Source: Gloeocapsopsis sp. IPPAS B-1203
GTDB taxonomy: Bacteria; Cyanobacteriota; Cyanobacteriia; Cyanobacteriales; Chroococcidiopsidaceae
Assembly (NCBI RefSeq): GCF_002749975.1
Contig: NZ_PEIG01000005.1
Location: 124,001-188,000, forward strand
DNA: 64,000 nt
Direction: 5' to 3'
The position numbers and the translations under genes are program-made. Positions within the stretch are counted from its first letter, which is position 1, and every line of letters starts with the position of its first letter. Below the pieces are notes generated by a model. The model did no database searches, was not told the DNA's origin, and saw only the letters and a program-made list of their open reading frames with translations. Of this stretch, positions 20,352 to 26,946 are shown in pieces.

Positions 20352-21553
20352 ATGCTTACCCTGACTTACGAGTACAAATTAATCCCAACGCAGCAGCAGG
20401 TTCTGGAAATTGAGAACATCCTAACCGTTTGCCGTAAAGTTTGGAATTTTGCCTTACGCGAAAGGAAGGACTGGGTTAACAGTCGTAAGTGTAGGATAGA
20501 GGCTTGTTCTTTGGAGCAAGAATACATAACACAACCGGATGTACCGTTCCCTAACTACCACATTCAAGCCAAAAATTTGACTGAAGCCAAGAAGGTTATC
20601 TCCGAATTGCAATTGGTTAATGCCCAAGTTTTACAACAAGTTCTCAGAACTTTGGATAGAGCTTGGGATGATATTTGGAAGAGAGGATTTGGCTTCCCTC
20701 GTTTCAAAAAACATTTTAGAATGAGGTATGAATGTTTTCCCACAACTTAAAGGGAAAATTGTTAAAGCAAATCGCCTAAAGCTTCCTCAATTAGGTTGGG
20801 TAAAATTTCATATTTCTAGACCGATTCCAGATGGGTTTAAGGTTAAACAAGCTAGGGTAGTTAGAAGGGCTTCTGGTTACTTTGTCATGCTGTCTTTGCA
20901 GCTAGATGTCAATGTACCTGAAGTACCTTACAGTGGTCATCCACTAGGTATCGATATCGGACTGGAAAGCTTCTTAGCTACCTCTGATTCTGAGCTAGTA
21001 GCTAGACCCAAATTCTTTAATCCACTTCATAGCAAGCTGGAATCGCTGCAAAGAAGATTGAAGCATTAAGAAACTAGGTTCTAATAACCGCCGCAAACTC
21101 AATCAGAAAATAGCAAGACTTCACCAACAGATATCAGATACTAGGAAGGATTTTCACTGGAAATTGGCTCATCATCTCTGTGACTCTTCGGGGGCAGTTT
21201 TTGTTGAAGACATTGATTTTAAAACTTGGGCTAAAGGTATGTTTGGTAAACATAACTTAGATGCAAGCTTTGGGCAGTTCTTCAATATTCTTAGCTTTGT
21301 TTGTTGGAAAAGAGGAGTGTTCTTTGCCAAAGTAAGTAAAGATTACACGTCACAAATTTGTCCTGAGTGTGGCACACTAACAGGGAAGAAAAAACTTTCC
21401 TCTCGTGAACATAATTGTCCTGAATGTGGGTACAAAACCCATCGAGATGTAGCAGCAGCTCAAGTAATTAGAAATCGCGGTATCCTTGCGGTCGGGCAGC
21501 CCGTAGGGTTAAAAATTGCTTCTGGAGACGTACTGACGGGGGCTTCGGTCTAG
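20352..21553 (+). pseudogene. tnpB: IS200/IS605-family TnpB (RNA-guided nuclease), two frameshifts
   Basis: A TnpB gene split over three frames. Part 1 is 20352-20750 (MLTLTYEYKLIPTQQQ, the N-terminal helix-turn-helix). Part 2 continues from about 20728 (VFPQLKGKIVKANRLKLPQLGW) to 21069 and includes the first RuvC motif GIDIGLESFL. Part 3 resumes near 21070 (KKLGSNNRRKLNQKIARLHQQ) and runs to 21553, with the second RuvC motif VEDIDFKTW, the zinc finger CPECG...CPECG and the third motif THRDVAAAQ. All domains of an approximately 400-residue TnpB are present, so only two small indels disrupt it (near 20728-20735 and 21063-21073). No TnpA is present. It sits between the TrkA-N gene and the K+ channel gene. 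Confidence 0.88.
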
Positions 21554-23048: not shown

Positions 23049-23264
23049 ATGCAACAAGCTGCTACCGACTGGTGGGTGGAAATAACGACACTTTCACCAC
23101 GCTGTGTTTATTATTTTGGACCATTTGCAACAAAGGACGAAGCTAAAGCAGCTTACCCAGGATATGTGAAAGATCTCGATGGTGAAGGCGCAAAAGGAAT
23201 TATTGTTGTGATTCAACGCTGTCAGCCTAAAGAACTGACGATATGTGAAGAAGATGAGAGGTAA
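23049..23264 (+). CDS. DUF1816 small protein
   Basis: A 71-residue protein of the cyanobacterial DUF1816 family, similar in size and fold to CpcD-like linker domains. Recognisable features are the WWVEITTLSPRCVYYFGPF start and the FATKDEAKAAYPGYVKDL segment, followed by the IIVVIQRCQP strand. The function is not established. It is preceded by about 200 bases with no other gene and ends five bases before the convergent Argonaute gene. The start is the ATG at 23049; no strong ribosome site is seen. Confidence 0.75.
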   Translation: MQQAATDWWVEITTLSPRCVYYFGPFATKDEAKAAYPGYVKDLDGEGAKGIIVVIQRCQPKELTICEEDER

Positions 23265-23269
23265 AAACT

Positions 23270-25486
23270 TTATAACCACGGTTGGCGATCGCCCGTCAAC
23301 ACTCCGCTAAAATTTATGCCGTTTAATCGTAAATAAGCAATGCGATCCGAACCGTGAAGAACCATCGGTAAACGAGGCTCTTTTAACGCTCCGTAGTGCA
23401 ATAATGTGAGTTTTAGAGTAGTTTCTACAACATTCTCAATTGATGTTTGATGTCCTTGTGGATGTATTCTCAAACGCAGCGGACGAGCTAAGCCCACACT
23501 AGAATGCACTTTGGTGGTGACGATAATTGCTTCATGTGATGAGAGTCGTAGGGCTAATCCTGGTATTGGTGCTGAGATTGTTTTATTTGTTTTATTAAAG
23601 TTATACAAACGAGGATTTCCAGACTTAAGACACTCTACCAAGATAAAGTTTGCACTGATCGCCTTAGCCCACTCAACTAAATTATGAACTTCTTGACCGC
23701 GAAATGGTCCATCGCGGTAAATTAAAATAGTTTTATTCCTGAGTTCAGCTACCGGAAGTAAACTTTCTAAAATTCGTCGTGGAATTTCTTCACCTTCAAT
23801 CAAAGCGTCTTCTAATTGGTAGCGAATAAATTCACCTTGTCTGCCATAAAGACGAATACTAGCACAAGCATTCAATGTTCCTGGTAATTTTGCTTTAGAA
23901 ACCCTCGATACATCCAACCCAATAATATAGTCTGCAATTTCTAATGGTTGGGCTAAAACAAAAGGTAAATTGCCTAATTTGCCGAGAATTCCTGGAATAA
24001 CGGAGTTTAGTATATTTCTCGAATCAACACTTTCTAAAGTATCAGCGTAAACAAATTGGCTAGCAATTCCACGTCGCAATAATTGTGAGTATATTTGATA
24101 GTAAAGACTACCACTTTCATCACTATCAGCAGTGCGATCACTCTCTGGTAGAAATACTAAAACAATATCCGGTGGAACTATGATGAGTTCGTTGACAGCT
24201 TGTTCAACTTCTGATCTTAAACTAGCACCCGCCAATTTTTGAAGTTCTAAAGCTTTTTTATTAACAATATCACTAGCAAATTTATATTGTTTGAGACGTT
24301 GTTTAGTTTCCTCTAAAAAAGGATTTAATTTAAAATCACACAGCTTCAGTGCTGCAGTTCTAATACTTCTTGATTCATCGCTAAAATCATCGTGTCGGCG
24401 ATAAACACCACCCTTAGATAATCCTTGAAGAATTTTGCCTCTTACTCCCGTAAATCCGTTACCAAAAAGCAATGGAGTTTCTTCGATCGGCGTTGCTGGT
24501 TGCCAAAATAAATTGGGATACTCTCTACTGTTAATACTACGCTCTAGTTGAAAACCATAAGCATTTAAAGTATCTTGAGCAATTTGCTTATAGGAGCTTA
24601 ATAAGTTTTGTCGCTCTTGATTAGAGACTTTTGTTTTTTTAAGTAACTCTCCATAATCGACTTGAAATTGACCTGCGGTTTCAGCCGTGACGCAGGGACG
24701 TAGTGCAGCTAACGGATAGCGAAATTGCTTTTTGTTTTTACCAAATTGCACTGCAACTACAGGTTGATCTGCTGATACTTCTTCTAGCTTTCGTTTACTA
24801 ATTGAACCTTGAACTAATGCTAATAGTTCTTCTCGTTGTTCTCCCACAGTTCCAGTAATACCAAGAATATTACAAGTATTACCATGCTCGATTTCTTTAA
24901 CTTTAAGTCCAACTAAAGTTTGTTCGGGTTCGTGTCTATATGGATGATTGTTAAAGAAATCTGCTAAATCACATTTAGGCACAATACTACTACGAATCGT
25001 TAAGGTCATTGCTGGTAGTGTTGCTGATAACCATTCAACTGTTTCAGCCCAAAACTTTACTTCTCGAATAACTTCTACTAAATTTTGTGAAAATACAGTA
25101 ATAGAGGATAAAGAACGATTTATTTTTAATATCTGTACAGCAAGTTGCGCCAGAATGAGAGGCGTTGGTGATGGCTGACGTACCCACTGAATTGAATAGC
25201 AGCGATCGCCAATATCGTTATGCAACTCATCTTGAATTTCTGCTAGTGCGTTTCGCCATTCATTTTGGTTAGGTAGTTGTTTGATTGCTCCAACTATCCA
25301 AAAATGTCCTTCTTGCCATATAGCGACAACTTTGGGGAACTTTAAACTAAAACGAAAAGCAAATCTATTGCCTAATTCCCGCTCTATTTCTGGTATTAAT
25401 CGAAAACACATCAAGTTCTGATTTGATACACTTAGCGGTAAAATTTCACTTAAAAATGTTTCAGTTTGGGAAACAGTAGCTGTCAT
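23270..25486 (-). CDS. Prokaryotic Argonaute (long, catalytically competent type)
   Basis: Guide-directed nucleic-acid nuclease implicated in defence against plasmids and phage, and in chromosome replication in related cyanobacteria. The 738-residue protein has an N-terminal half with N/PAZ-like regions of low similarity, a MID domain (about 430-520) and a PIWI domain (about 515-738). The catalytic tetrad is inferred as Asp525 (IIGLDVSRV), Glu566 (EGEEIPR), Asp592 (YRDGPFRGQE) and Asp714 (HGSDRIAYL). The MID 5'-phosphate pocket has Tyr462, Gln477 and Lys503; the usual lysine four residues after the first position appears to be Tyr466. The start is the ATG at 25486, overlapping the upstream nuclease gene by four bases (ATGA). 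It most resembles long-A pAgos of cyanobacteria. Confidence 0.93.
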   Translation of the reverse strand: MTATVSQTETFLSEILPLSVSNQNLMCFRLIPEIERELGNRFAFRFSLKFPKVVAIWQEGHFWIVGAIKQLPNQNEWRNALAEIQDELHNDIGDRCYSIQWVRQPSPTPLILAQLAVQILKINRSLSSITVFSQNLVEVIREVKFWAETVEWLSATLPAMTLTIRSSIVPKCDLADFFNNHPYRHEPEQTLVGLKVKEIEHGNTCNILGITGTVGEQREELLALVQGSISKRKLEEVSADQPVVAVQFGKNKKQFRYPLAALRPCVTAETAGQFQVDYGELLKKTKVSNQERQNLLSSYKQIAQDTLNAYGFQLERSINSREYPNLFWQPATPIEETPLLFGNGFTGVRGKILQGLSKGGVYRRHDDFSDESRSIRTAALKLCDFKLNPFLEETKQRLKQYKFASDIVNKKALELQKLAGASLRSEVEQAVNELIIVPPDIVLVFLPESDRTADSDESGSLYYQIYSQLLRRGIASQFVYADTLESVDSRNILNSVIPGILGKLGNLPFVLAQPLEIADYIIGLDVSRVSKAKLPGTLNACASIRLYGRQGEFIRYQLEDALIEGEEIPRRILESLLPVAELRNKTILIYRDGPFRGQEVHNLVEWAKAISANFILVECLKSGNPRLYNFNKTNKTISAPIPGLALRLSSHEAIIVTTKVHSSVGLARPLRLRIHPQGHQTSIENVVETTLKLTLLHYGALKEPRLPMVLHGSDRIAYLRLNGINFSGVLTGDRQPWL

Positions 25487-26295
25487 GCAGTAACCTCAAT
25501 CTTAGAAAAACTGCAAACTGATTTAAATTGACAATATTGACACTGAATACCAGGATTTGGTGGAAAAATTTGGTTAAAAGCTTCGATATTTCTCCTATAT
25601 CGCTGGAGGTCATGCTGATGTTTCTTAGCAATTTGCGCGATCTCGGTTTGAACTGCTTTTAATTGAGACACTGTTGCTGAAATTGGCTTTGACCATTTGC
25701 CAGTTTCTAAGTTATAAAACGAGGCAATAGCCGGTAGTTTTGGATATAGATAACTAACTGCTAATAGATAAACAAATCCTTGTCGGAGATCAAAGTCTGT
25801 TTTACCCGTTTTAAAATCTAAAATGTATAAAATATCATCTTCTGTAAAAATACAATCAATTGCTGCATATAAATTGAATAAATAATTACCTTGTTGAATT
25901 TGAATTGGTTGGGGAAATCCTTCATCACCGCGTGTGAGATGAATGATATGTTTATCCTTGAGAATAGGATTCTCTTGATATTTTCTCAAAATCAAGCGCA
26001 CGCGTTCTTGGACTTCCTCTTTTTCTTGATTCAATTGCAAAGTTTCGGCGATTGTTTGCACTGCATTGCTGCAATTCAACATCGAATGGTCTTGATGAAA
26101 CTCGTATACTCCTCTTTGTGCTAAATGACCAATTCGCTGAGGAATGTTATCTTGCTTTAATATTTGTGCGATCGCTGTTTCTTTTCCACGTGCTTTAGTG
26201 AAACCTCGTTTCATGTCGCAATGCCAGTTTTCTTGTCCAACAGCTGGTGCAAATAGTGACCACAAGTTATAACTGGCGAAAGGAAGCCACGTCAT
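25483..26295 (-). CDS. Cas4/RecB-like PD-(D/E)XK nuclease with Fe-S cluster, Argonaute partner
   Basis: A 270-residue nuclease in an operon with the Argonaute; its stop overlaps the Argonaute start (ATGA). It has the fold marks of RecB/Cas4 nucleases. Asp147 (AAIDCIF) and Asp160-Phe-Lys162 (YILDFKTGK) form the PD-(D/E)XK site, followed by Gln172 in DLRQGFVYLLA. Four cysteines are placed as in Cas4/AddB: Cys26 upstream, then Cys252, Cys255 and Cys261 (QCQYCQFKSVC), expected to hold a 4Fe-4S cluster. Such proteins are known neighbours of long pAgos, where they may process DNA ends or supply guides; that role is inference. The start is the ATG at 26295. Confidence 0.88.
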   Translation of the reverse strand: MTWLPFASYNLWSLFAPAVGQENWHCDMKRGFTKARGKETAIAQILKQDNIPQRIGHLAQRGVYEFHQDHSMLNCSNAVQTIAETLQLNQEKEEVQERVRLILRKYQENPILKDKHIIHLTRGDEGFPQPIQIQQGNYLFNLYAAIDCIFTEDDILYILDFKTGKTDFDLRQGFVYLLAVSYLYPKLPAIASFYNLETGKWSKPISATVSQLKAVQTEIAQIAKKHQHDLQRYRRNIEAFNQIFPPNPGIQCQYCQFKSVCSFSKIEVTA

Positions 26296-26771
26296 GTGTA
26301 TTGTTAACAGTTACATTGATTTTTTTAACGCAAAAAATAATAACTCAATATTGATTTTTTCGTCAAGAACGAATATGATATGTAAATTACGTAAAAGTAA
26401 AAAACGTGTTTCAAAGCTTTGGTCAGATGCTTTGCCGAGTGCATAAAAATAAGAAATACACTCACTGTGAGATAGGATTGGTATTAGATTTCACATACTT
26501 GCCTAAATTAGAGAGCGATCGCTGGCACAGAAATGAGATTTAAACGCAGAAGAATTAATTTTTTTAGCAAGGCGGATTCCATAGCATGATGAAGATCTTC
26601 TCAAGCAATGCCTGCTTTTCGGCGAAGGCAAGAGAACCCATTTGCTCAGAAAGTCTTCCGCGCTGCGCCATTAGATAGCGAGGAGTATTGATGTCTACAC
26701 CAATTGAACGCTGACAAGCTTTTAGAATGAAGAATGTAAATAGATACTAATCTTAACTTGCGTTTCTTTTA
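26296..26771. other. Intergenic region upstream of the Argonaute operon
   Basis: About 475 bases between the nuclease gene and tRNA-Ala. The promoter of the Argonaute operon must lie in the AT-rich part at about 26296-26450. On the minus strand 26564-26743 is an uninterrupted frame with codon use like a gene (internal ATG at 26671, MAQRGRLSEQMGSL..., 35 residues to the stop). It has no usable start further up, so it may be a gene remnant. No CRISPR-like repeats and no tRNA 3'-end duplicate (attachment site) were seen. Confidence 0.4.
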
Positions 26772-26844
26772 TGGAGGTAAGCGGACTCGAACCGCTGACA
26801 TCCTGCTTGCAAAGCAGGCGCTCTACCAACTGAGCTATACCCCC
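26772..26844 (-). tRNA. tRNA-Ala (anticodon TGC)
   Basis: The minus strand gives a 73-base cloverleaf. The acceptor arm GGGGGTA pairs with TACCTCC (with a G-T type pair), the D arm reads GCTCAGTTGGTAGAGC, and the anticodon arm CCTGC-TTTGCAA-GCAGG has TGC as anticodon. The T arm is AGCGG-TTCGAGT-CCGCT, and the discriminator is A. The 3' CCA is not encoded. It is an isolated tRNA gene between the Argonaute operon's upstream region and trhO. Confidence 0.97.
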
Positions 26845-26946
26845 GATTTGAGAAGTGGCTTGATTGATTTGCCTTTGCTATTCTAACCTATAGATTCAAA
26901 TTAAATCAAGTACTTTGTTGAGCAAATTTCGACAATTGTCAGAACG

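Follow-up and report, generated by a model that had tools for sequence, protein, structure and literature searches.

A Gloeocapsopsis Argonaute–Cas4-like nuclease operon and the probable loss of an XRE–M78 switch carried by most related loci

To our knowledge, how active prokaryotic Argonautes spare the chromosome of their own cell, and when they are made, is still largely open. This question is raised by a locus of Gloeocapsopsis sp. IPPAS B-1203 in which a long Argonaute gene is joined to a gene encoding a Cas4-like nuclease, and which lies in the 64,000-nt stretch of DNA analysed here (the window). We consider it likely that the pair forms a working guided-defence operon of a kind that is switch-controlled in most relatives, and that Gloeocapsopsis has lost the switch and kept the pair. 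The features of the pair are as follows.

25483..26295, minus strand: ORF of a Cas4-like PD-(D/E)XK nuclease of 270 aa, first gene of the operon and located upstream of ago
25483..25486, minus strand: ATGA overlap between the nuclease stop and the ago start, as read from the sequence
23270..25486, minus strand: ORF of a long prokaryotic Argonaute of 738 aa with intact D525/E566/D592/D714

The sharing of ATGA by the two minus-strand ORFs, already described in the initial annotation of this DNA, is confirmed, and the same 4-nt overlap was found in ca. 45 of 62 related loci, so that the coupling of the nuclease to ago is conserved and not due to chance. The catalytic residues proposed in that annotation also stand. 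For the Argonaute DEDD site, an alignment of 13 sequences showed no variation at D525, E566 and D592 and a conservation of at least 90% at D714; in the profile alignment, D525 and D592 correspond to the Ala positions of the solved CbAgo chain, and D592 to the D-to-A position that distinguishes the two CpAgo chains. The PIWI region thus carries the DEDX tetrad expected of a long, catalytically active pAgo. Full-length N-PAZ-MID-PIWI organization is indicated by matches to the PADLOC model pAgo_II (PDLC02380, over the full length, 1209.9 bits) and to PDB 9iad (residues 6-738, 928.7 bits), PIWI being the only domain scored separately (Pfam Piwi, 4.7e-12). Residues 1-269 of the nuclease match the PADLOC model Aga_Cas4-like_Nuc (PDLC02405, 465 bits), and this family profile together with the PD-(D/E)XK motif places the protein in that family, of which close homologues have solved structures (PDB 9iab and 9iac). 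Asp147, Asp160 and Lys162, proposed as its PD-(D/E)XK residues, occur in 41/41 sequences, as do C252, C255 and C261, and C26 occurs in all 40 sequences that cover this position. The four cysteines are thus kept throughout and may hold an Fe-S cluster; their description as being of Cas4 type holds only loosely, since the Cas4 equivalog TIGR00372 gave 16.9 bits with the window protein against a cut-off of 65, and by this score the nuclease is regarded as Cas4-like and not as Cas4 proper. The loss of catalytic residues that had been named as evidence against the module was not seen, the residues of the Argonaute being intact.

Linkage of the two genes was assessed in a phylum scan of 291 cyanobacterial genomes and in a separate set of 66 named loci. 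An Argonaute of the window's clade occurs in 16 of the 291 genomes, with the nuclease adjacent in 16/16; the five other Argonaute matches in these genomes are ca. 30% identical or are fragments, and none (0/5) has the nuclease next to it. In the named set, the nuclease is directly upstream of ago in 62/66 loci, and the four without an adjacent nuclease have only partial Argonautes. Adjacency at chance level, the other outcome held to speak against the module, is not what was observed, and with its residues intact and its genes adjacent in both sets the two-component Argonaute and Cas4-like nuclease module is well supported. Argonautes of the window's clade are truncated or frame-broken in several relatives (L046/L081, L099, L107, L114, L149, L156 and L157), so that loss of the Argonaute seems to be common.

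The proposal that the nuclease is always linked to an Argonaute was rejected. The nuclease was found in 41 of the 291 genomes, at 44 loci, and 28 of these 44 have no adjacent Argonaute. These solo copies form a single clade (support 99/93), mostly share one conserved chromosomal place and retain the catalytic and cysteine residues; they do not contradict the linkage of the remaining copies, because they belong to one clade with a largely fixed location. The window's genome also has a copy of this clade, with 57% identity. The solo paralogues (L053-L080, and G000:C1:679764-680555 in L003) come from Gloeocapsopsis and one other family and are mostly divergent from a phosphoglucosamine-mutase-like gene.

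In 44 of the 62 pair loci, a cassette composed of an XRE (CapH-like) gene and an ImmA/IrrE (CapP-like) gene lies upstream of the nuclease and in divergent orientation. Where present, the cassette is always upstream and divergent, its adjacency spans many families, and none was found in the downstream flanks of the 62 loci. In the phylum scan, a homologue of the M78 peptidase occurs in 12/16 genomes having an Argonaute of the clade versus 17/275 others (p = 1e-10, a value that, like the others given here, overstates the support and is indicative only, related loci not being independent events), and it adjoins the pair in all 12 genomes of the clade that have it. M78 and XRE cassettes were also found without an Argonaute and hence are not an Argonaute-only part. 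The regulator is absent from 16/62 loci, one of which has insufficient upstream sequence; most of the 16 display no relic, so that some lineages may never have been regulated in this way. In four regulator-less loci of Leptolyngbyaceae type (L112, L113, L121 and L146), genes for a 489-aa XRE-like protein and a protein of ca. 148 aa were found upstream of the nuclease and divergent from it; they are possibly a replacement regulator.

The peptidase matches the Pfam M78 profile, and its HExGH motif, of HEXXH type, and E115, the third conserved Glu, are invariant in 22 sequences. Its best PADLOC match is capP (7.5e-14) and its best PDB sequence match is CapP (7t5t, 1.1e-6), while the best fold matches of its predicted model (pLDDT 84) are CapP, IrrE and PprI, including a PprI–ssDNA complex. 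The XRE protein matches capH in PADLOC (2.2e-8), with HTH_VI scoring higher and related models matching too, and CapH in the PDB (7t5u, 4e-4), with other XRE proteins scoring better; the fold matches of its predicted model include CapH and DdrO, with SinR and restriction controllers equal or better. It thus fits several HTH families about equally well as CapH. In the relatives, the placing of an XRE HTH gene beside the promoter of an immune operon agrees with what defines CapH/CapP regulators, a statement that applies to these relatives and not to the window.

A palindrome, GTTGA-N8/9-TCAAC, is common to the intergenic regions that separate the XRE gene from the nuclease. With up to one mismatch it was detected in 42/44 of these regions (shuffle mean 1.1) and in its exact form in 31/44 (shuffle mean 0); the 14.2 kb of intergenic DNA contain 45 exact copies, whereas the downstream flanks, 314 kb in total, have none. 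Of the 44 regulator-bearing loci, 23 have an exact copy no more than 300 nt from the nuclease start, versus 0 of the 19 regulator-less ones (p = 3e-5, again indicative only). In an independent test on 17 cassettes unlinked to an Argonaute, the palindrome, with up to one mismatch, was present in 15, in each case at most 250 nt upstream of the XRE gene, from which we conclude that the motif travels with this gene; no exact copy was found elsewhere, in 167 kb. Single matches at other places were not interpreted, because an exact copy is found about once per 280 kb in the window's genome. A universal promoter layout, with the operator as the -35 box and a -10 box behind it, was observed in only 18/42 loci under a strict rule and is not claimed. 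At L189-L205, the XRE–M78 cassette and the palindrome are located beside other divergent genes, which encode either a protein of ca. 88 aa and one of ca. 233 aa or two proteins of 330-380 aa, with no Pfam match where tested, and which apparently form a second operon that such a switch would control. A conserved ORF of ca. 73 aa ('...LCFSIGRPLPLLLEEVQK...AIYEILTK') was noticed between the operator and the nuclease, in the same direction as the latter, in at least nine loci (L106, L107, L110, L126, L130, L132, L133, L140 and L144; see also L085:8179-8430); it is a possible third member of the operon.

The window itself holds what appear to be the remains of this arrangement, at the following positions.

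26314..26329, minus strand: position of candidate operator site 2, degenerate, GTTAAAAAAATCAATG, by comparison with GTTGATTAAAAAGCCAAC of Aliterella (L094)
26337..26366, minus strand: predicted nuclease-ago promoter, TTGACG-18-TATTAT, 10/12 consensus
26350..26367, minus strand: candidate operator site 1, decayed, CTTGACGAAAAAATCAAT, two mismatches to GTTGA-N8-TCAAC
26400..26655, plus strand: pseudogene relic of the XRE (CapH-like) repressor, divergent, in three frames with stops
26656..26946, no strand assigned: position of the ImmA/IrrE (CapP-like) peptidase gene of the relatives, the peptidase being absent here
26772-26844, minus strand: tRNA-Ala, within the place of the relatives' peptidase gene

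An XRE profile matches the relic, located between the nuclease and the gene that follows, in three successive frames (1.2e-7, 2.4e-7 and 5e-3), and at the nucleotide level the relic matches the Aliterella XRE gene and its upstream region with a score of 108 versus a shuffle maximum of 28. A search of the window's own genome gave matches within the relic at 26409-26522 and 26519-26608; apart from the relic, this genome has a single XRE match, confined to the HTH and with 38% identity. No M78 (Peptidase_M78) domain was found across the whole genome, which is 99.9% complete, and intact repressor and peptidase genes of the CapH/CapP type are lacking from the window. A promoter scan of the window is by itself at chance level (2 found versus 1.9 expected); the promoter-like sequence listed above is at the position of the operator and promoter of the relatives and overlaps the decayed site 1. 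G. crepidinum (L093) has the same XRE relic, and its site 1 is a one-mismatch form, CTTGACGAAAAAATCAAC. Besides Gloeocapsopsis, relics were detected in two cassette-less loci, L114 and, with weaker evidence, L108.

The label for presence of the regulator changes seven times on the Argonaute tree. The two Gloeocapsopsis copies are nested among regulator-bearing loci with 99% support, which indicates that the absence of the regulator in this genus is a loss. Between the two Gloeocapsopsis genomes, dN/dS is 0.25 for ago and 0.19 for the nuclease versus 0.18 for a neighbouring gene, values indicating that both genes are still under purifying selection without the switch. The window also has an IS605 OrfB/TnpB-type gene broken into three ORFs (20352-21553, plus strand; HTH_OrfB, OrfB and a Cas12f1-like TNB zinc domain) and a 71-aa ORF (23049-23264, plus strand) that is convergent with the end of ago and is kept beside ago in G. 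crepidinum (L093:8217-8432).

Taken from its sequence, the window probably encodes a working DNA-guided defence operon. As judged from the families involved, the Cas4-like nuclease would attack invading or broken DNA and supply or trim short fragments, which the co-translated Argonaute would load as guides for cutting matching DNA. In most relatives, and by analogy with CapH/CapP and DdrO/PprI, the XRE (CapH-like) repressor would bind GTTGA-N8/9-TCAAC near the operon promoter and keep the operon off, until the ImmA/IrrE (CapP-like) metallopeptidase, probably on sensing single-stranded DNA, cleaves it, by which the nuclease and the Argonaute would be switched on. In Gloeocapsopsis, the pair should be constitutive or under other control, because the peptidase is gone, the repressor is a pseudogene and the pair is kept.

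Other explanations bear on different parts of this reading. The pair could be a plain Argonaute and Cas4-like module for which the XRE and peptidase genes of the relatives are an unrelated neighbour, such as a toxin-antitoxin-like or mobile element, as would suit the intact pairs retained in regulator-less loci and the cassettes found beside unrelated genes. We regard this as unlikely given an adjacency that recurs in 44/62 loci and many families, always upstream and divergent, and palindromes that are specific to the shared intergenic region and whose exact form is missing from the regulator-less loci. An alternative of more weight competes with one step only, in that the nuclease would act solely after the Argonaute, degrading the cut DNA with no part in guide supply. 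The order of action is not readable from the sequence, the same nuclease also occurs in a solo clade with no adjacent Argonaute, and the favouring of RSF1010 plasmids by loss of ago or of a cas4-like gene in S. elongatus is compatible with either order (PMC10653904); we consider this alternative quite possible, though less likely than not.

For Gloeocapsopsis, the locus could be decaying, the switch having been lost first and the pair being on its way out, so that it would have ceased to work as a defence. In each of the two Gloeocapsopsis genomes, ago and the nuclease gene have intact reading frames that retain every key residue, and their dN/dS of 0.25 and 0.19 resemble that of a housekeeping neighbour, whereas the repressor is a dead gene in the two genomes, so that we find such a decay very improbable, even with the decay of the operator and repressor and with the truncated or frame-broken Argonautes of several relatives in its favour. 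There is about equally little to be said for a loss compensated in trans by another repressor on the partly retained operator: site 1 is partly kept and overlaps the promoter-like sequence, and the genome has one other XRE gene with a weak match, but this match is confined to the HTH at 38% identity, the M78 peptidase was not found in the genome and operator site 2 is degenerate.

On balance, we favour the broader view that cyanobacterial Argonaute–Cas4-like systems are inducible by ssDNA via a dedicated switch of CapH/CapP type, Gloeocapsopsis being a natural constitutive mutant. If so, guide supply and Argonaute synthesis would be tied to DNA damage or invasion, both nucleases would be turned on by a repressor–protease switch that acts through operators of its own, and a guide-directed defence would be added to the systems under control of the CapH/CapP type. 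Such a dedicated switch, for which a candidate operator is defined, would also provide a regulon motif for finding more genes, and Aliterella or Microcystis, in which the switch is kept, and Gloeocapsopsis, in which it is lost, offer matched lineages for comparing regulated and unregulated Argonautes.

Cyanobacterial Argonautes and Cas4-family nucleases have reportedly been found to cooperate in a paper of 2025. The solved proteins (PDB 9iad and 9iab/9iac), which may stem from that work ('ACE1'), belong over their full length to the same two families as the window pair but are different proteins, about 55-60% alike. Both window proteins match over their full length the PADLOC models of the Argonaute class II pair, whereas the upstream genes of the relatives match HTH_VI, capH and capP and not models named for Argonaute. 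In S. elongatus, the Argonaute SeAgo is an active long-A protein, and a transposon screen showed that loss of ago or of a cas4-like gene favours RSF1010 plasmids (PMC10653904). The pair itself is thus already known and not new, since PADLOC has models for both proteins, members of both families are in the PDB, and that Cas4-like nucleases are associated with pAgos was pointed out in 2009, with Microcystis named (PMC2743648), and again in 2018 (PMC6299218). A literature search, outside of which the 2025 paper on the pair lies, retrieved no paper in which ImmA or IrrE is paired with a prokaryotic Argonaute, so that the XRE–M78 switch on an Argonaute pair looks unreported.

DdrO/PprI controls the DNA-damage response and not a local defence operon. 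This Deinococcus system, whose protease is also named IrrE, is likewise a switch made of an XRE repressor and an M78 protease with sensing of ssDNA, to which PprI binds (PMC10904395). CapH and CapP regulate CBASS, Bub and other immune operons with ssDNA as the trigger: ssDNA activates CapP, by which CapH is cleaved (PMC13373217). Like CapH/CapP, the cassette of the relatives combines an XRE-type repressor with an M78 peptidase and lies upstream of an immune operon; among proteins of solved structure, the closest to the peptidase is CapP, and those related to the repressor include CapH. The cassette differs from CapH/CapP in that, in the relatives, it would control a nuclease and an Argonaute, from which it is divergently oriented, and in that it has been lost from the window.
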